A stretch of 32,913 nt of DNA from Candidatus Bipolaricaulota bacterium. GTDB lineage: Bacteria; Bipolaricaulota; Bipolaricaulia; UBA7950; UBA9294. Both the position numbers and the translations under genes were made by a program. Where the stretch lies: positions 1-32,913 of the forward strand of contig JAKLFO010000004.1 of the NCBI GenBank assembly GCA_022711155.1. Direction: 5' to 3'. The notes beneath the pieces were generated by a model that saw only the letters and a list, made by a program, of their open reading frames with translations, ran no database searches and was not told the DNA's origin. This document shows, one piece after another, positions 5,744-30,947 of the stretch (the first letter of the stretch is position 1; every line of letters starts with the position of its first letter).

Positions 5744-5747
<4 letters not shown>
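4278..5747 (+). CDS. Membrane protein with long Ala/Glu/Ser-rich tail (DUF4175-like architecture)
   Basis: 489 residues from GTG 4278, which overlaps the upstream stop by 8 nt exactly as that gene overlaps its own predecessor. ATG 4296 is an alternative. Two membrane helices lie near residues 22-41 and 48-66, and a third around residue 150 (APWLVALFVLGAAAAVVFAL). The rest is a long acidic, low-complexity region with predicted helix (TLTEEEKEALRALLAEMPRS) and Gly/Ala/Pro-rich linkers. This layout, N-terminal helices then a long disordered or coiled tail, resembles the DUF4175-type proteins found in MoxR operons, but I base that on architecture and context, not a clear motif. It shares an ATGA junction with moxR. 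Confidence 0.65.
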
Positions 5748-6727
<980 letters not shown>

Positions 6728-6788
6728 TGCGCACGGTTTGGGCTTACGTGGAGCGAGCCGGTCTGACGCCGGCCGTGAGGTGGTGCGC

Positions 6789-8582
6789 GTGATCCTCTCG
6801 AGCCCCGCCCAGCTGGGCATCCTTCTCCTCTCCCTGCTCATCCTCTTCCTGCACTTCCTCCACTCCCAGCGGAAGCGCCGTGAGGTGGCGGCTCTCGTTC
6901 TCTGGGAGAAGTTGCCGACTCTTCCTGAAACAAGGGCTGCGCGGCTCCGAGCGCGTTTCGATCTTCTCCTGCTCCTCCAGCTTCTCGTCCTCGCCTTCGT
7001 CGCCGTCGCACTCGCCGATCCGTGCCTGCGGACGGCGCGACCGCGCCTCGCGAGCCTGGCTATCGTGCTCGACGGGAGCGCGAGTCTCCGCGCGCAGACC
7101 GCGGAAGGAGAGGACATCGCAGCGCTCGTGCGTGCGGAAGCTCTCGCTTTGTTCGACCGCTACCCGACGACCCCCGTGGCGGTCCTCGAGATCTCGAGGT
7201 CCCCGCGCGTCCTGGCTCCCCTTGCGGAGCGACACGATGCCGCGCGCCGGGCGGTGGCCGCCTGGGAGCCCACGTGGTATGGTGACGGCGCCGACGAGGC
7301 GCTCGCCGCGCTCCTCGCGAGCCAGGACTCGTTCTTCGAGCGGGTCGTCGTTCTGACCGACGCCCAGGCGCAGTTCGCTCTCCCTGGCCTTGAGGTCGTC
7401 GCCTTCGCCGCAGGAGAGAACGTGGCGATCTCGGCGTTCTCCGTCCGCGAGAGCCTTGATGGGACGGGGCCCGTCGCGTTCGTCCGCGTCCGAAACGACA
7501 CGTCGGCGTACCGCGAGGTCTCGGTGCGCGTGAGCGACGGAACCCGCCGCCTGTCCTACGACGCGCTCGTCGAACCCGGGGGCGAGCAGGCACTCGTCCT
7601 GCCGTTCCCCGCCTCGATCGGTGGGACGTTCACCGCGACCCTCGACGGCCGGGACGCTTTCTCGGTTGACGATGTCAGGCTATCCAGCCTCGCCCGCCGT
7701 GCCGGCGTCCGCGCACGCGTCATCGGCACGATGGACCGCTACCTGAAGACCGCGCTCACCGTCGCGGGGGTAGAACTCGTCGCTCAGGACGACCCCGGCA
7801 GAGCTGACCTGGTCGTCTGTTCGAGCGCGACCCTTCCCGCCGGCCTTCGTGAGGAGCGCGTCTTGCTGGTCCACGCCACGCTCGCAGGCATCCTCGATGT
7901 CGGAGAGGATGTCCGTGACGTCCGGGGGCCGCTCACCGTCGAGGTGCCGGGCGACCCTCTGCTGTTGGAGGTTGATCCGCTCAACTTCGTGCTCAAGACC
8001 TCGCCCGCCGTCCGCCCGATCGAGTCCGGAGTGACCGTTCTCTCCGCCGACGGCGTTCCCATCTTGTGGCACGGCGAACCGGCCGGTCGGCGAGTCGTTT
8101 CTCTCTTCCCCGATCCGCTGGAGTCCAATCTGCCCCTCACGGTCGACTTTCCGATCCTCGTCCTGAACGCTGTTCGTTGGCTCCTGCGCACCGGCGGCTC
8201 CGCGCCCGAGGCATCCGCGATCGTCGGAGCCCCCGTCCCTGTCGCGCCGTACGGGGCTCCCGAACGCCTGAAGGACCCTACGGGGCACGAGATCGGGTTG
8301 CCCGCCGATTCCATCGGCTTCATCGCCAAGGCGCCCGGCATCTACGAACTCACCACGTCATCCGGTACGTACGCCGTCGCGGCCAACGTCGATCCCGAGG
8401 AGTCGCCCCGCCCGCCGGCAGTTGCCGCGGAGCCAGCCGCCCAGGCTTCAGGAGAGGAAGCCCGCCGCAAGACGGCGTACATCGACCTGTGGCCCGTGGC
8501 CGCCGCCCTGGCCTTGTGCTGCCTCGCGCTCGAGTCCATCGAGCGCGAGCGAAGCGGTTCTCTGAGGAGGCGACGGAGGTGA
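6789..8582 (+). CDS. BatA-like membrane protein with VWA domain
   Basis: 597 residues from GTG 6789 (GAGGTGG 5 nt upstream). The N-terminus has the two-helix aerotolerance/BatA module: VILSSPAQLGILLLSLLILF, then LLLLLQLLVLAFVAVALADP. A VWA domain follows with MIDAS motif DGSAS (D95, S97, S99) and the LTDAQ acidic loop. The Thr that normally completes the site (GGTD in relatives) is replaced in YGDGADEAL, so metal binding may be altered. A middle exported region and a C-terminal helix (LWPVAAALALCCLALE) complete it. Likely a partner of MoxR at the membrane. It overlaps the next gene by 4 nt (GTGA). Confidence 0.82.
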   Translation: MILSSPAQLGILLLSLLILFLHFLHSQRKRREVAALVLWEKLPTLPETRAARLRARFDLLLLLQLLVLAFVAVALADPCLRTARPRLASLAIVLDGSASLRAQTAEGEDIAALVRAEALALFDRYPTTPVAVLEISRSPRVLAPLAERHDAARRAVAAWEPTWYGDGADEALAALLASQDSFFERVVVLTDAQAQFALPGLEVVAFAAGENVAISAFSVRESLDGTGPVAFVRVRNDTSAYREVSVRVSDGTRRLSYDALVEPGGEQALVLPFPASIGGTFTATLDGRDAFSVDDVRLSSLARRAGVRARVIGTMDRYLKTALTVAGVELVAQDDPGRADLVVCSSATLPAGLREERVLLVHATLAGILDVGEDVRDVRGPLTVEVPGDPLLLEVDPLNFVLKTSPAVRPIESGVTVLSADGVPILWHGEPAGRRVVSLFPDPLESNLPLTVDFPILVLNAVRWLLRTGGSAPEASAIVGAPVPVAPYGAPERLKDPTGHEIGLPADSIGFIAKAPGIYELTTSSGTYAVAANVDPEESPRPPAVAAEPAAQASGEEARRKTAYIDLWPVAAALALCCLALESIERERSGSLRRRRR

Positions 8583-11077
8583 TCCGGTTCGCGACTCCGC
8601 TTCTCCTGCTCCTCGCGCTCGTGCCGGCGGCCGCCCTCGTGCTCTTCCGTGCCCGGCTCCGCGCCCTCCTCCTGCCGTGCCTGGCCGCCCTGGCCTTCAT
8701 CGCGGCGCTTGCCGGGCCCGAGATCCGCAGGGCCGAAGGCGGGGAGAACGTGTTCCTCCTCGTTGACCGCTCTTCCAGCGTGACAGCTTCGGCGACGGCA
8801 GACGAGGTGGATGGGCTGGCCGCCGCAGTGCAGAAGGCCAATCCCGGCGTATCGTTCGGCACGATCGACTTCGCGTCGCGCGCCGTCCTTGCGGTCCCGC
8901 TCGCCGCGCACCCGACGCCCGCCTCCCTCCCTCCCGTGGCCGCGAGCCTCGGATCGGGCACCGATCTCGGCGCGGCGGTCAGGCTAGGCCTTGGCGCCCT
9001 CCCGCGCGGGGAGGCCAACCAGCTGGTGCTCTTGAGCGACGGCAGGGTCACGGGCGGCCTGCTCGACGCGCTGAGCGCGGCGCGCGAGCAGGGAGTGCCC
9101 ATCTCGGTTGTCCCCCTCGGGCGCTCTGCGCCGGCAGATGTCGCGCTCGTCGGGCTAGAGACGCCTGCTTTGGTTGATCCGTCGCGGCCTTTTCTGGTCA
9201 CGGCGACCGTTCGATCCGATGAGCCCGGCGAGGCCCTGCTCGCCCTGTACCGAAACGGTGAGATGGTTTCGTCGTCTTCGATCACGCTCGCGGCCGGGCT
9301 CTCGCGCTTCGAGGTTCGCCAGATCCTCGAGGTCGCAGGAACCTACTCCTACCGAGCGTCTGTGAAGAAGGTCGGCGATCCCTTAGCTGACAACGACTCG
9401 CTCTCCGCCTTCACGGAGGTCGGGGCCAGTTCTCCGCTGCTCGTCGTCTCGCAGTCGCCGGCCGACGCCTTGCTCGCCGCCCTGGCAGCCCCCGGGCGGC
9501 TCCTCGCCACCCGACCCTCCGTGCCTTCGCTCGAGGAACTGGCGGGCCGCCGCCAGGTGGTGTTGACCGGGCTCCCTCTCGGTGGGCTGGGGCCAACCGA
9601 CATCGCGACTCTGCGCTCGTTCGTCTCGGAGATGGGCGGCAGCCTGTTGGTCGCAGAGGGCGAGGCGGAGCTGCGCGGCCTGCGCGAGGCCGCCATCGAG
9701 GACCTGCTGCCTGTCTCCTACACGCTCCCGCAGCGGGCCGAACAGGCAAGTCTCGCCGTCGTCTACCTTCTGGATCGCTCCGCCAGCATGCTCGGGTCCG
9801 CCGCCGGCGCGATGAAGATCGACATCGTGAGGGAGGCCGCGGCCGCCAGCGTCGGGCTCCTCGGCCCCGACGCGGCGGCGGGCGTCATTGCGTTCGACCG
9901 GGATCTGCGCTGGCTCAGCCCGGTCGGGTCGGTGGGCGACGGAAGCGCGATCTACGCGTCGCTCCGAACCCTCGAGGCGAGCGGAGGGACGGACATCTTC
10001 GGTCCCGTGACGGCCGCCCTCGACGCGCTCGAGGCGGTCTCGGCGCGCGTCAAGCATGTTCTTCTCTTGTCCGACGGCAAGACCGTCGACGAGCCGAGGG
10101 ACTGGGAGGGGCTGTTGGCCCGTCTCGCGGCCCAGTCGGACATCCACGTGTCTGCCATTGCTGTGGGTCCCCAACCGAATCGGGAGCTCCTCGCGCGGCT
10201 CGTGGAAGCGGGCCGCGGGACGCTCTACACCGCAACGGACGTGGCCACGCTGCCGCAGGTGTCGATCGAGGCGACGCAACGCCTGTCGCGGAGCCGCTTC
10301 GTGACCGAAGAGTCGCCGGTCGCCGGCACCCTCGTGATCGGCGACCTCGCGACCCTTCCGCCCGTGCAGGGATACGCGCTGACGTATCCACGGCCGACGG
10401 CCGACGTCCTCCTGTCCGTCGCGAACGATCCGATCTTCGCCCGCTGGAGGCTGGGACTTGGCTGGGTGGGCGTCCTCAACGTCGACCTCTCCGGCGTTTG
10501 GTCGCGCGACTGGTTGGCTTGGGAAAGGGCGTCTCTCTTGCTGGACACCCTGCTCTTGGCGGTCGAGCCCGACGCCTGGGCCGCCCAAGGCCTCGAGCTT
10601 TGGGTGGACGTGGAAAGCCGGCCGGGAAGGCTCCGCGTCGAGGCAAGAGAGCCGGACGGGAGTTACGCCGACTTCCTCGCCCTCACGGCGACCGTCGTTC
10701 CCGGGGGAGACCGGCTCATCCTAGAGCAGACGGCCCCCGGGCTGTACGAGACCGACCTTCCGGACCTCAAAGAGGGAGCCTACATCGCGCGCGTCACCGA
10801 CGCGGCAAGGGATCGCGTTGCCACGCTTCCCTTCTCCGTTCCGTACCCAGCAGAGGCGCGCGAACTCGGAGTTGACGCGGAGACCCTTTCACTGATCGCG
10901 CGCGCGACCGGCGGCGAGGTTCTGAGAGGCAACATGCGGCTCGCGGAGAGGACCGCGTCCGGCGCCGCTTCGTATTTCCCGGCGCACCGGCCGTTCCTAC
11001 TCGGCGGACTTCTTCTCTTCCTGCTGGAACTCGGCTGCCGGAAGATCCCGCGGGCTGCCCGTCGTGGCGCGTCCTAG
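8579..11077 (+). CDS. Large membrane protein with two VWA domains and a GATase1-like domain
   Basis: 832 residues. Start GTG 8579 overlaps the upstream stop; an open frame back to 8066 is a shadow of that gene. Two N-terminal helices are followed by VWA1 with DRSSS (63-67), Thr128 in GTDLGAAV and Asp154 in SDGR. A GATase1-like stretch covers about 285-380 (LRSFVSEMGGSLLVAEGEAEL). VWA2 has DRSAS (399-403), Thr471 in GGTDIFG and Asp499 in SDGK, so both MIDAS sites look intact. A beta-rich C-terminal part and a last helix (PFLLGGLLLFLLELG) end the protein. Such proteins sit in MoxR operons; the VWA domains probably bind protein partners through Mg2+. The stop shares CTAG with the convergent symporter gene. 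Confidence 0.85.
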   Translation: MIRFATPLLLLLALVPAAALVLFRARLRALLLPCLAALAFIAALAGPEIRRAEGGENVFLLVDRSSSVTASATADEVDGLAAAVQKANPGVSFGTIDFASRAVLAVPLAAHPTPASLPPVAASLGSGTDLGAAVRLGLGALPRGEANQLVLLSDGRVTGGLLDALSAAREQGVPISVVPLGRSAPADVALVGLETPALVDPSRPFLVTATVRSDEPGEALLALYRNGEMVSSSSITLAAGLSRFEVRQILEVAGTYSYRASVKKVGDPLADNDSLSAFTEVGASSPLLVVSQSPADALLAALAAPGRLLATRPSVPSLEELAGRRQVVLTGLPLGGLGPTDIATLRSFVSEMGGSLLVAEGEAELRGLREAAIEDLLPVSYTLPQRAEQASLAVVYLLDRSASMLGSAAGAMKIDIVREAAAASVGLLGPDAAAGVIAFDRDLRWLSPVGSVGDGSAIYASLRTLEASGGTDIFGPVTAALDALEAVSARVKHVLLLSDGKTVDEPRDWEGLLARLAAQSDIHVSAIAVGPQPNRELLARLVEAGRGTLYTATDVATLPQVSIEATQRLSRSRFVTEESPVAGTLVIGDLATLPPVQGYALTYPRPTADVLLSVANDPIFARWRLGLGWVGVLNVDLSGVWSRDWLAWERASLLLDTLLLAVEPDAWAAQGLELWVDVESRPGRLRVEAREPDGSYADFLALTATVVPGGDRLILEQTAPGLYETDLPDLKEGAYIARVTDAARDRVATLPFSVPYPAEARELGVDAETLSLIARATGGEVLRGNMRLAERTASGAASYFPAHRPFLLGGLLLFLLELGCRKIPRAARRGAS

Positions 11078-13504: not shown

Positions 13505-14383
13505 ATGTCGTGGAGATCGAGGCAGGGGCGAGAGCGGAAGCCCGCACTCCTCGTTCGGTTCGTCGAGCGATGCGGCGGCCGTCCCGACCGCGGTGTGACG
13601 GAGCTGCTCGAGTGGGTCGAGGTTCTCGCCGTCGCTGCCGTGCTGGCTACCTTCATCATGGTCTTCGTCACCGTCCGCATGCACGTTCCCACCGGCTCGA
13701 TGGAGCCGACGATCGGGAAGAGCGACTCATTTTTCGTCGATCGGATCACGTACTTCTTCCGCGATCCTAAGCCGGGAGACATCATCGTGTTCCGCCACAC
13801 CGAGGAGGTCTACGTTCGCTCGGTCGCGAAGGACTCCGCGGCGGGCAGGGCCGGCGTCCCCGTTGGGGTCCGCCTGGCGACCCTGACCGCTTTGACGAGC
13901 ACGGCCTCGAAGCAGGAGTCCGTCTACACGACGGCGTTCATCGACGGGCAAATCTCGAAGTGGCCCAACGGGGCGACCATCACCCTCATCGCGTCAGACG
14001 GCAAGCGCTACGACCTCGGGAAGAAGACTTCGGAGACGAAGTCGCTCGCCGACCTCGGGATCCGCACGCGCGAAGCGCGGATGCGCTACGTGAAGCGGCT
14101 CGTCGCAGTGGGCGGGCAGACGGTGCAGATTCGCGACGGCGACATCTACGTGGACGGCTCGAAACTGCAGGGGCCGCGCTTCGCACGGTTCTATTACTCG
14201 AACGACGCGCGCTTCCGCTTCGGCGTAGAGCCGACGCTGGTCCCCCAGGGCATGTACTTCGTCCTCGGCGACAACTCCGTAGACTCCTTTGACTCCCGCT
14301 TCTGGGGCTTCGTCAGCGACAAGGACATCCTCGGAGTGCCCTTCCTGCGGGTATGGCCGCTGTCGCGATTCGGCGCCATGTAG
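13505..14383 (+). CDS. lepB: Signal peptidase I with inserted PDZ-like domain
   Basis: 292 residues. One N-terminal membrane helix (about 36-57) is followed by box B with catalytic Ser65 in PTGSMEPTI, box C (KPGDIIVFR, 89-97), box D with catalytic Lys197 in RYVKRLVAVGGQ, and box E (GDNSVDSFDSRFWG, 255-268). The enzyme cleaves signal peptides from exported proteins outside the membrane. Between boxes C and D lie about 95 extra residues. Their start (VRSVAKDSAAGRAGVPVGVRL) and later strands (IDGQISKWPNGATITLIASDGKRYDL) match the plan of a PDZ domain. I chose ATG 13505, 5 nt after a GGGGG; ATG 13493 is possible. No neighbour depends on it in an operon. Confidence 0.92.
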   Translation: MSWRSRQGRERKPALLVRFVERCGGRPDRGVTELLEWVEVLAVAAVLATFIMVFVTVRMHVPTGSMEPTIGKSDSFFVDRITYFFRDPKPGDIIVFRHTEEVYVRSVAKDSAAGRAGVPVGVRLATLTALTSTASKQESVYTTAFIDGQISKWPNGATITLIASDGKRYDLGKKTSETKSLADLGIRTREARMRYVKRLVAVGGQTVQIRDGDIYVDGSKLQGPRFARFYYSNDARFRFGVEPTLVPQGMYFVLGDNSVDSFDSRFWGFVSDKDILGVPFLRVWPLSRFGAM

Positions 14384-21489: not shown

Positions 21490-22398
21490 ATGAGCACTTC
21501 ACGATGGCGCAGGCGGATGGCCGTCGCACTCGCCTGTGCGCTCTGTTTCGGGCTCGCCGCGTGCGACCCGGAAGACTTGGCGAGCGCACGCTTCACAGCC
21601 ACACGCGTTGACAGCGCGGCCTTTCCTGCCGCCGGAATACCCATCCTGGAGATCGAGAGCTCGAACGGAGCGGTCGACGTACGAGGAGTTCCGGGGCAGA
21701 CGGAGGTTCGTGTCACGGCCACCGTCACGTCGAGGGGGAGCACGCAGGCGCAGGCAAACGAGCGGGCTGCCGCGGTCTCGCTCCACATGGCCCAACAGGG
21801 AGGGCGGATCCTCCTTGCGTACCGCGCCAACGAGCAGACGGACGATGTCCGCCGCTATACCGGCGTGGCGTTCGAAGTCACTGCGCCGCCGGGTTTGGAT
21901 GTCCGGGCCGTGACATCGAACGGCGCCGTTTCGGCAGCGGCGGTCCAGGGGCGGCTCCACCTCACGACATCGAACGGAGCGGTCGACATCTCCGATGCAG
22001 TCGGGCAGTTGCGCGCGGTAACAAGCAACGGCAGGATCGGCGCCGCGCGTTGCCAAGGCGTCCTCGATCTCGAGACATCGAATGGCGAGATCGCGGTGGA
22101 GGACGTGAGCGCTACCGTAGACGCGCACACGTCCAATGGGCCGATTGTGTTCTCTGGCACGCTCATCGGGCCCGCGAACAGCCTTGGCACAAGCAACGGC
22201 CGCATTCGGTTCGCGACGCCGGCGACCGCGTCACTCGAGATCACGGCCAAGACATCCTCCGCGTCGATCTCCTCCGCCCTGCCCCTCGTCGGCGACACGC
22301 AAGGGAAGGAGTGGCTGGCCACGCTCAATCCGCCAGCGGCAGCCGGCGTGTCCCTGGTGACGAGCAACGGGGCGATTGAGATACTCCCCCGCCCATAG
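21490..22398 (+). CDS. Lipoprotein with 18-residue SNG repeats (DUF4097-like beta-helix)
   Basis: 302 residues. A lipoprotein signal ends in GLAAC with Cys25 as the lipidated residue. The mature part carries eight SNG triplets, at residues 58, 143, 161, 179, 197, 215, 235 and 292; five in a row are exactly 18 residues apart. Each repeat reads like TSNGAVDI followed by a short strand. This is the pattern of DUF4097-type putative adhesins, predicted to form a right-handed beta-solenoid. The role would be at the cell surface; no ligand is known. ATG 21490 is preceded by GGAGGGC with a 7-nt gap. There is no convincing promoter in the 268-nt gap before it; TAGTAT at 21404-21409 is a weak -10 candidate. 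Confidence 0.85.
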   Translation: MSTSRWRRRMAVALACALCFGLAACDPEDLASARFTATRVDSAAFPAAGIPILEIESSNGAVDVRGVPGQTEVRVTATVTSRGSTQAQANERAAAVSLHMAQQGGRILLAYRANEQTDDVRRYTGVAFEVTAPPGLDVRAVTSNGAVSAAAVQGRLHLTTSNGAVDISDAVGQLRAVTSNGRIGAARCQGVLDLETSNGEIAVEDVSATVDAHTSNGPIVFSGTLIGPANSLGTSNGRIRFATPATASLEITAKTSSASISSALPLVGDTQGKEWLATLNPPAAAGVSLVTSNGAIEILPRP

Positions 22399-27393: not shown

Positions 27394-28194
27394 ATGGGAG
27401 ATCTACAGCGAGGTGCGGAGTCTGTCACGGTCGAGCGCGCGGTGTCCGAGTTCGAGCGCGTTCGCCTCGATGGGGTAGGCTACGTTCGAGTCACGCTCGG
27501 GGACAACGAGGGCGTCACAGTGGAGGCGCCGGGCGAGTGGGTCGATGACATCGTGACCCGCGTCCGCGGGGGGGTCCTCGAACTCGGCCTGCGCGGGAAC
27601 CACTACCACCTTCGCCGTAATGGCAAGATCCGCTTCCACGTGGCGGCGCGCGCCCTGCGAGGCCTCGCAATCGACGGAAGTGGCACGATCGAGGCCCCAC
27701 GCTTGGCGGCGGATTCCGTTGCGGCCGCCATCGACGGGGCCGGACGAATCCAGATTGACTCGATCGAGGCCGAACGCGTTCGCCTGGCGATCGACGGAGC
27801 GGGACGATTCGCTGTGGGGACGGCGAAGGCGCAAGAGGTCCAGTTCTCGATCGATGGGACCGGAACCATCGACGTCGAGCGTTTGGATAGCGAGCGGATC
27901 GCCGTGGCGGTCGATGGGATGGGGCGCGTCGTCGCGACGGGTACGGCGGACAGCGTGGAGATCCACGTCGACGGCACGGGGGAAGTCGACACGAGGCAGC
28001 TCATCGCACGCCATGTCGAGGTCGAGATCGACGGCGTTGGCAAGGTGTTCACGCGCGCCGAGGAGACGCTCGACGTCCGAGTCGACGGGTTCGGCCGGGT
28101 CGAGTACGCGGGAAGCCCCCGCGTGCGCGAGCGCGCGGACGGTGCCTGCCGCGTGGTCCGGCTGGATGCTCCGGATGAGCCCGCGCGCATCTGA
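27394..28194 (+). CDS. IDG-repeat protein (DUF2807/GIN-like beta-solenoid) without signal peptide
   Basis: 266 residues. Nine copies of a (I/V)DG(x)G motif: one near 25, then at 93, 113, 133, 153, 173, 192, 212 and 230, five of them exactly 20 residues apart. Each copy reads like LAIDGAGRI followed by a second strand. This matches the DUF2807 putative-adhesin fold, predicted to be a right-handed beta-solenoid. Known relatives are usually exported, but here the chain begins MGDLQRGAESVTVERAVSEF with no signal peptide or membrane segment, and no in-frame upstream signal was found. So it may be cytoplasmic or exported by another route. ATG 27394 follows a GGAGAGGAGAGG run. Confidence 0.82.
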   Translation: MGDLQRGAESVTVERAVSEFERVRLDGVGYVRVTLGDNEGVTVEAPGEWVDDIVTRVRGGVLELGLRGNHYHLRRNGKIRFHVAARALRGLAIDGSGTIEAPRLAADSVAAAIDGAGRIQIDSIEAERVRLAIDGAGRFAVGTAKAQEVQFSIDGTGTIDVERLDSERIAVAVDGMGRVVATGTADSVEIHVDGTGEVDTRQLIARHVEVEIDGVGKVFTRAEETLDVRVDGFGRVEYAGSPRVRERADGACRVVRLDAPDEPARI

Positions 28195-29149: not shown

Positions 29150-29632
29150 TCACCTGTTCGGTGCGTTCTTCGTCCCGGTGCGGAGGAGCCAGATCGGCAG
29201 CAGCGGGTCGCCGCCGTCCGGGATCCGCTGCCAGGTCATGGCATCGTCGTAGTCGTCCTGGAACGGCCCGACTTCCTCGAGCACCGCGCCGGCGGCATCG
29301 AGGAGGCGCAGGAGAAACGACTCCTCGTTGCGCAGCCGCAGCCCGGAGTAGACGAACACGGTTCGCTGCCCCGGCCGCAGGACGAGCGACTCCGGGGCGA
29401 TGACGACCGCTCCCTCCTCCGGATAGTTGTAGGTCAGGGACCAGCCCGCGAGGTCGACGGACGCCGTGCCGACGTTGAGGATCTCCACCCACTCGGCATC
29501 GCGGTCGAACCCGTTCGGGTTCAGCTCCACCTCATTGATGACCACGGTTCGCGTCTCCGCCGCCCAACCGGCAAGGCCCATCGCGAGGCAGACGACGAGG
29601 GCCGACGCCGAAATGCGTCTCGCGCTGCGCAT
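29150..29632 (-). CDS. Secreted lamin-tail (LTD) domain protein
   Basis: 160 residues. A signal peptide (ISASALVVCLAMGLAGWAAE) is followed by a nearly complete lamin tail Ig fold: VVINEVELNPNGFDRDAEWV, EILNVGTASVDLAGWSLT, LVLRPGQRTVFVYSG and a DAMTWQRIPDGGDP end, all characteristic. In bacteria these domains occur in secreted or surface proteins, often as extra modules of nucleases; here it stands alone. ATG 29632 follows AAGGAG with an 8-nt gap. It lies 16 nt behind the FAH-family gene on the same strand, so they may be co-transcribed, although their functions look unrelated. Confidence 0.87.
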   Translation of the reverse strand: MRSARRISASALVVCLAMGLAGWAAETRTVVINEVELNPNGFDRDAEWVEILNVGTASVDLAGWSLTYNYPEEGAVVIAPESLVLRPGQRTVFVYSGLRLRNEESFLLRLLDAAGAVLEEVGPFQDDYDDAMTWQRIPDGGDPLLPIWLLRTGTKNAPNR

Positions 29633-29648
29633 GCTCCTGCTCCTTTTC

Positions 29649-30374
29649 TTACCTGACGGGGTTCCTCAACACGCCAACACCGTCGATCTCGACCTCGACG
29701 ACGTCGCCAGGCGACAGCCGTCCGACTCCCGCCGGAGTTCCTGTAGCGATGACGTCGCCCGCTTCGAGCGTCATGAACGACGTGATCTCCTCGATCAGTG
29801 CCGGGATCGGGAAGATGAACGAGCTCGTCCACCCATCCTGTCGCAGCTCACCGTTCAAGCGCAGGCGAACGTGAAGGGGCTCCGCGACCTCGTCCGGCGT
29901 CACCAACACAGGGCCGAGAGGCGCCGAGCCATCGAACGCCTTCGCGCGAACCCAGCTCTTCTCCCACTTTTGGGCCACGCGGTCCGACACGTCGTTGAGG
30001 CACGTGTACCCGAGCACGACTTCCATCGCACGCGAGGCCGGAACGCCGCGGCAGCGGCGGGCGATCACGACGGCCAGCTCGCCCTCGTAGTGCACCTCCT
30101 CGCTCGCCGGGAGGACGATGGGCTCGTCCGGACCGATCACCGCGGAGGGGGGCTTCAAGAAAAGCAGCGGCCGTTCTGGAACTTCATTTCCCAGCTCGGC
30201 CGCGTGGGCCGCGTAGTTGCGCCCGACGCAGACGATCTTCGTGGGCGCGCACGGCGCCGCCAGCCGGACCTCGTCGAGCGGCAGCTTGAGCGCGCCGGAG
30301 CGCACGAACCGACCCTCCAACACCCCATCTCGCACATCCTCGGACCGCGCCACCCGAAACCTGACCCGCCTCAT
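29649..30374 (-). CDS. Fumarylacetoacetate hydrolase-family protein
   Basis: 241 residues. The family core is seen in KIVCVGRNYAAHAAELG, the metal-binding HYEGELAVVI (Glu97, Glu99), CLNDVSDR (Asp128), and the C-terminal DVIATGTPAGVG. These cytoplasmic Mg2+ enzymes cleave or isomerise beta-diketo acids; candidates include acylpyruvase, oxaloacetate decarboxylase and dioate isomerase, and sequence alone does not decide. ATG 30374 is 4 nt from AGGAGG and lies behind a good promoter. The longer frame to 30620 is antisense to lspA. Confidence 0.93.
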   Translation of the reverse strand: MRRVRFRVARSEDVRDGVLEGRFVRSGALKLPLDEVRLAAPCAPTKIVCVGRNYAAHAAELGNEVPERPLLFLKPPSAVIGPDEPIVLPASEEVHYEGELAVVIARRCRGVPASRAMEVVLGYTCLNDVSDRVAQKWEKSWVRAKAFDGSAPLGPVLVTPDEVAEPLHVRLRLNGELRQDGWTSSFIFPIPALIEEITSFMTLEAGDVIATGTPAGVGRLSPGDVVEVEIDGVGVLRNPVR

Positions 30375-30392
30375 GACGCCTCCTTTCCCCAC

Positions 30393-30421
30393 AACGTACC
30401 TTCCCTGCGTCCGCCCGTCAA
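30393..30421 (-). promoter_or_regulatory. Promoter of the FAH-family gene
   Basis: Reverse strand: TTGACG (30421-30416), 17-nt spacer, TACGTT (30398-30393). Start predicted near 30387, right at the AAAGGAGG, so the leader is about 13 nt. Its -35 faces away from the lspA -35, 20 nt apart. Confidence 0.65.
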
Positions 30422-30441
30422 CGCGCGAGCCCGTTCCTGTC

Positions 30442-30470
30442 TTGACGAGCCCGCGGCGCTCGGATACGCT
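30442..30470 (+). promoter_or_regulatory. Promoter of lspA, leaderless type
   Basis: TTGACG (30442-30447), 17-nt spacer, TACGCT (30465-30470), 9 nt before the lspA ATG. The leader would be at most a few bases. Confidence 0.62.
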
Positions 30471-30479
30471 CGCGCCACC

Positions 30480-30947
30480 ATGCTGCAGGCTCTCTTCGTC
30501 GTTCTCGCGGGCCTCCTCCTCGTCGCGGATCGCGTGACAAAAGCTTGGGCCGTCCACGCTCTCGCGCTGGGCGACCCGCAGCCGCTCCTTGGGAACGTCG
30601 TTCGGCTCACACGCGTCCACAACGCAGGCGGCGCCTTCGGAGTGCTCGCGGGTCGGCCGACGCTGTTCATCGCCGTCTCGCTCGTCATCGCCGCGATCGC
30701 CGTCGCGGCGTTCGTCGTCTTGCGTCGCCAGAGTCCCTGGCTGCGCCTCGCCCTCGTCCTCGTGTTCGTCGGAGCGGTGGGCAACGTGATCGATCGACTG
30801 AGCGTTGGGTACGTCGTGGACTTCTTTGAGATCGTCGGGTTCCCGGTGTTCAACGTGGCGGACTCATGCGTCACCGTCGGCGCGGTACTGCTAGTCCTCT
30901 ACGCGTTCTTGGGAGGTAGACGACCATCGACCTCAAGGGAAAGCTGA
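30480..30947 (+). CDS. lspA: Lipoprotein signal peptidase (signal peptidase II)
   Basis: 155 residues, four membrane helices, normal family length. Conserved parts are ADRVTKAW (16-23), VHNAGGAFG (47-54), VGNVIDRLSVGYVVDFFE with catalytic Asp114, and FNVADSCVTVG with catalytic Asp128. It removes the signal peptide of diacylglyceryl-modified prolipoproteins, such as the SNG-repeat lipoprotein encoded in this window. ATG 30480 has no Shine-Dalgarno, and the promoter ends 9 nt upstream. Its 3' end contains the ribosome site and start of the thymidylate kinase gene (22-nt overlap). Confidence 0.95.
   Translation: MLQALFVVLAGLLLVADRVTKAWAVHALALGDPQPLLGNVVRLTRVHNAGGAFGVLAGRPTLFIAVSLVIAAIAVAAFVVLRRQSPWLRLALVLVFVGAVGNVIDRLSVGYVVDFFEIVGFPVFNVADSCVTVGAVLLVLYAFLGGRRPSTSRES

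Follow-up and report, generated by a model that had tools for sequence, protein, structure and literature searches.

A type I signal peptidase with a PDZ domain inserted between its catalytic boxes C and D is encoded in the 32,913-nucleotide stretch of DNA analysed here (the window), and PDZ-bearing signal peptidases are found in one lineage and in no other bacterial group searched. The explanation that best accounts for the whole, with a probability of about 60%, combines a single insertion of the PDZ domain into housekeeping LepB with a docking role for the inserted domain. The historical part of this explanation is close to certain: the enzyme belongs to the housekeeping LepB line, whose hairpin between boxes C and D received a bacterial PDZ domain on one occasion, in an ancestor of part of the phylum, and has kept it since. 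No description of a PDZ domain in a signal peptidase was found in the open-access literature.

The gene lies at 13505..14383 on the + strand, as do all its features described below, and translates stop-free to a protein of 292 residues, which was assigned by translation, alignment and two curated families, Pfam Peptidase_S26 (PF10502; 133.5 bits, cut-off 22.9) and NCBIfam TIGR02227 (LepB; 130.5 bits, cut-off 47). The start codon at 13505 agrees with those of relatives, and the frame stays open for 242 more codons upstream. A single transmembrane helix directly N-terminal of the catalytic domain (residues 29-55, 13589..13669), indicated by the AF2 model and by its hydrophobic sequence, is the predicted membrane anchor, with a presumed topology. 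Box B, VPTGSMEP (13685..13708), contains the nucleophile Ser65 (codon 13697-13699); box C, GDIIVF (residues 91-96, 13775..13792, from AF2 and alignment), lies at the start of a predicted strand, residues 93-107, that runs on into the PDZ domain; and box D, RYVKRLVAVGGQ (14084..14119), contains the general base Lys197 (codon 14093-14095). Both Ser65 and Lys197 are invariant among 28 aligned relatives, and Lys197 is also invariant among 39. Box E, GDNSVDSFDSRFWG (residues 255-268, 14267..14308), located by translation and alignment, matches the pattern GDN..(N/D)S.DSR, which is kept in relatives, and is likewise invariant among the 28. The earlier sequence-only reading had taken the protein for a signal peptidase I with all catalytic boxes present, and Ser65, Lys197, box E and the two family scores bear it out; judged by its sequence, the protein is a complete type I signal peptidase (S26A), and signal-peptide cleavage is its predicted activity.

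Several other genes of the window are recorded here as separate observations. A frame at 29466-30947 (+) encodes signal peptidase II (LspA, Peptidase_A8, E=2e-35) at its residues 348-481, and signal peptidases I and II are both found within this window. At 5744-11077 (+), a MoxR ATPase gene is followed by genes for BatA/VWA and VWA/DUF58-like proteins, forming a cluster of the MoxR-VWA type, and a DUF4097 'toastrack' protein (21490-22395) and a DUF2807 head-GIN protein (27394-28191), both on the + strand, are encoded with about 5 kb between them.

The insert comprises the 96 residues from 98 to 193 (13796..14083), delimited by family profiles, AF2, Foldseek and a profile search of the PDB, in agreement with the previously noted spacing of about 95 residues between boxes C and D. 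This gap is about 10 residues in the sequence of E. coli LepB and mostly a short turn in the nearest insert-less relatives of the class. The insert is not a product of chance, because 39 sequences from three GTDB families carry it. The window's own copy is a poor representative of the domain: Pfam PDZ_6 reaches 7.6 bits on its sequence (E=4.4), below the curated cut-off of 27, and neither phmmer nor Pfam, given the window protein as a single sequence, detected a PDZ domain. Eight residues inside the PDZ domain (130-137, LTSTASKQ, 13892..13915) are present, according to the alignment of relatives, in this copy only. The missed call reflects divergence and not absence, and the copy is a degenerate example of its family. 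Among ten chosen proteins, the PDZ_6 scores included 50.0, 45.9, 40.2, 34.7, 28.0 and 27.8 bits in relatives with the insert, all above the cut-off of 27, with the best match in L119 (50.0 bits, E=2.4e-13) and the next in L131 (45.9 bits), and in the family alignment it matched 21 of 28 members at E<=1, the best at 2.6e-8. Moreover, a profile built from the 39 segments between box C and box D, searched against PDB sequences, retrieved DegP (E=4.3e-15), the site-2 protease Aq_1964 (8.6e-14) and human syntenin (3.8e-7), along with PDZ domains of the DegQ and RseP type.

Structure prediction leads to the same assignment. In the AF2 model of the full protein, pLDDT is mostly 90-96 across the insert, and the elements follow one another as strand 93-107, helix 112-116, strands 123-130 and 135-139, helix 143-152, and strands 158-163, 168-173 and 186-202; a separate model of the domain agrees with it. 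The insert is thus predicted to have a PDZ fold, with two helices and the PDZ order of strands. In Foldseek, the full model matched signal peptidases on top and then the PDZ domains of MTH1368, MucP and RseP with a probability of 1.00, and the high-probability matches of the domain alone were PDZ domains; despite these probabilities the E-values of the PDZ matches were weak (0.008 to 0.1), with TM scores by target length of 0.55-0.68. The comparison by structure prediction and Foldseek that had been suggested for this insert therefore returned the PDZ order of strands and helices, with RseP/MucP and MTH1368 as the best PDZ matches, and the ordinary signal peptidase beta-cap that had been named as the contrary outcome was not found in the AF2 models. 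That the insert is such a cap, or a variable loop that merely resembles a PDZ domain by pattern, has a very remote probability. Signal peptidases often carry variable inserts and the window copy alone scores poorly with PDZ_6, but the scores of L119 and L131, the match of the insert profile to DegP and the PDZ order of elements in two AF2 models all stand against it, as does the position of the LepB cap (domain II), which in sequence sits between boxes D and E rather than between C and D; short of a solved structure to the contrary, the profile and model results rule the reading out. The insert is confirmed as a PDZ domain between the catalytic boxes, an assignment formerly made by pattern only and now borne out by profile, structure prediction and relatives.

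The limits of the domain had to be revised in one respect. The sequence-only reading ended the PDZ domain at 'RYDL', which is too early; it probably continues through 'SLADLGI' and the next strand to about residue 193, because Gly185 is invariant in SLaDLGI and the strand 186-202 is predicted in one piece with box D. Across the 39 sequences, Gly185 is the sole invariant residue of the insert, and Leu181, Leu184 and Ile186 are nearly invariant. Carboxylate-binding loops of PDZ domains are recognised by a hydrophobic-Gly-hydrophobic motif, and from sequence conservation LGI 184-186, with Gly185 and suitably placed, is probably this loop (candidate segment LADLGI, L181-I186, 14045..14062). The following strand, continuous from 186 to 202 in two models (AF2/DSSP; 14060..14110), would be the ligand strand of the PDZ domain running directly into box D.

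From this arrangement we infer that the PDZ domain was opened at the turn between beta-B and beta-C, giving the order betaC-alphaA-betaD-betaE-alphaB-betaF-betaA-LGI-betaB. Joined through this turn, as strand order and sequence suggest, the box C strand would pass into beta-C, and the strand that follows the LGI carboxylate loop, beta-B, would pass into the box D strand that bears Lys197. The insert profile matches the site-2 protease of L193 in this order as far as LGI. Placing the LGI segment at the front of the profile gave a match to DegP in the PDB at 1.1e-20, against 4.3e-15 for the unpermuted profile, the two being trimmed differently. Matched profiles, including a control with the segment reversed, were compared on 26 targets. 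Permutation clearly raised the score of two of them, by 2 to 3 bits for E. coli RseP; the other was an ORF in L096. Since this matched-control test was weakly positive, we only infer the circular permutation.

The distribution of the insert was surveyed in 100 genomes of the class, which make up the whole phylum in the collection searched. In three related families, f1, f2 and f3, it is present in all 63 genomes where an S26 gene was detected, with no case of loss, and it is absent from all 19 S26-bearing genomes of six other families, f4 to f9. Twelve genomes of f1 and f3 had no S26 gene by profile (G011, G014, G017, G020-G023, G029, G039, G057, G061 and G065), some of them rated more than 90% complete (G022 95%, G039 93%), perhaps because contigs are missing or because the enzyme has diverged strongly. 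In a quick tree computed without the insert columns and without bootstrap, the 48 PDZ forms group together as a clade with an SH-aLRT of 99, and a single change of state accounts for the distribution of the insert across the class; as the PDZ forms are a single clade on the insert-less tree, the domain was gained once. Beyond the class, a sample of 1,452 genomes from seven other phyla contained no match, and 48 named genomes gave only partial matches, confined to the PDZ part; whatever was hit in either set belonged to ordinary PDZ proteins. In the larger genomes part of the candidates was scored, and both searches used thresholds of 1e-10 to 1e-12, below which an unrelated, independently gained PDZ insert might fall. 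No signal peptidase in the plasmid records aligned over most of the query. Other signal peptidases with the insert, a search for which had been proposed from the sequence, are thus located in families f1-f3 of the class, with none in the seven other phyla sampled. One PDZ-bearing signal peptidase, L128 (G060), has 139 residues between box D and box E, compared with about 60 in its relatives, and may hold a second insert.

Such a distribution also bears on the possibility of an assembly chimera or a frame artefact. The window's genome is a fragmented draft of 181 contigs and the frame is open far upstream of the start, but the same arrangement recurs in the 63 genomes without internal stops, including the closed genomes G036 and G037. 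An artefact has a negligible probability and was ruled out by these independent genomes.

In several relatives, the PDZ form occupies the housekeeping locus ffh-rpsP-trmD-rplS-lepB-rnhB. At L203 (f1) its neighbours are rplS, an RNA methyltransferase gene, trmD, rpsP, ffh and rnhB, at L205 (f3) it is preceded by rplS, and sequence clusters show the same neighbours at other f1 and f3 loci. The same gene clusters adjoin the PDZ-less lepB in L211, where rplS was checked by Pfam, and in L212. Because the PDZ form has the standard neighbours of lepB, and because G036 and G037 have one S26 match each, the domain entered the general signal peptidase. The window copy lies between a sodium:solute symporter gene and a PLP-enzyme gene, and copies in G003 and G007 are similarly placed. 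The window's genome encodes another PDZ-bearing signal peptidase (L002 94-945, contig C152), which shares 54% identity with the first, and G003 and G007 have two PDZ forms each; in G003 neither copy is beside rplS within the stretch examined, and loss of the standard locus, or a failure to detect it, may be the reason. Given its non-standard locus and the second PDZ form on contig C152, the window copy is probably a duplicate that arose within the family of PDZ signal peptidases.

The point of insertion suggests how the domain may work. In E. coli LepB, the box D strand with Lys145 lines the S1-S5 pockets, with Asp142 forming S3-S5, Ile144 forming S1-S3 and Lys145 acting as the base (PMC2259416; PMC12984324). 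Box D of the window protein aligns residue by residue, R194, Y195, V196 and K197 corresponding to LepB Asp142, Tyr143, Ile144 and Lys145, and the PDZ domain therefore joins the substrate strand at its signal-peptide-proximal end. We tentatively propose, with a chance a little short of even, that the domain serves for docking, next to the active site and on its signal-peptide side. It would bind the C-terminus or an extended strand of a membrane partner, for example a translocon or quality-control protein, and the bound partner would hold the peptidase at the site where preproteins emerge. The groove residues outside the LGI loop vary among relatives, and the partner may therefore differ among lineages or not exist. 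In addition, as the ligand strand and the substrate strand look continuous, binding could also alter activity. In its strongest form, a partner C-terminus on the PDZ domain would switch or tune cleavage through this continuous strand; such ligand control is unlikely, and if true it would be an allosteric input to an essential signal peptidase, of which we know no other instance.

Two further accounts of the domain compete with docking. The PDZ domain may have a purely structural role, as a folded spacer that makes the hairpin between boxes C and D stiffer or sets the height and tilt of the enzyme at the membrane and binds no ligand, a reading that we hold to be rather doubtful. It is favoured by the much faster evolution of the insert, with a mean pairwise identity of 37.5% in the PDZ core compared with 82% and 71% in the surrounding parts of the enzyme, by the AF2 strands that continue on both sides and therefore make a rigid junction, and by the fact that no partner of the PDZ domain is known. 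Invariant Gly185 and the near-invariant L181, L184 and I186 are what would be expected if the loop were used, although the needs of the fold could also explain them, and the retention of the domain in all 63 genomes likewise argues against a mere spacer. An insert that evolves fast yet is never lost fits the binding of shifting partners as well as it fits a structural role. That, as the sequence-only reading suggested, the domain instead picks substrates, or couples cleavage to misfolded exports through their C-termini in the manner of DegS/DegP, is distinctly improbable. The closest PDZ sequences are those of DegP/DegQ and site-2 proteases, which use their PDZ domains for envelope quality control, but the domain of the window protein meets the box D strand at its S3-S5 end, on the signal-peptide side (alignment and PMC2259416), the C-terminus of a preprotein is still unexported when most signal peptides are cut, and general processing is expected of an enzyme encoded, in several relatives, at the housekeeping lepB locus.

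Type I signal peptidase, an essential enzyme, usually does its work with no regulatory domain. In the present case, a module of the peptide-binding kind has been fused into its substrate-facing hairpin, at the housekeeping locus and across a lineage. The insertion point also marks a place at which the enzyme presumably tolerates a spliced-in domain, and the PDZ form makes it testable whether a partner can dock on, or regulate, signal peptide cleavage.

Combination with protease domains is the commonest use of PDZ domains in microbes, and a survey of microbial PDZ proteins lists S1C-type, S41, M50, M61, Lon, S55, aspartyl and M28 proteases with PDZ domains (Genome Biol Evol 2019, PMC6411480). 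Signal peptidase and S26 are absent from its main text, which is not proof, since 7% of its PDZ proteins are unclassified. The present enzyme extends the recruitment of PDZ domains by proteases to S26. The window protein shares with type I signal peptidases (LepB/SipS; MEROPS S26A; PF10502; TIGR02227) all the boxes, the Ser/Lys dyad and the N-terminal transmembrane helix, and its relatives share with them the ffh-rplS-lepB-rnhB locus; in E. coli LepB the additional domain II falls between boxes D and E, whereas the PDZ domain of the window protein lies between C and D. The site-2 proteases of the S2P type (RseP, MucP and Aq_1964) are likewise membrane proteases with an internal PDZ domain, and theirs is the closest in fold, but they are intramembrane metalloproteases (HExxH) whose catalytic fold is unrelated to that of the window enzyme. 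The HtrA/Deg proteases (DegP, DegQ and DegS) have the closest PDZ domains by sequence profile and are also envelope serine proteases with PDZ domains; unlike the window enzyme, they are trypsin-like, carry the PDZ domain at the C-terminus and use Ser/His/Asp catalysis.
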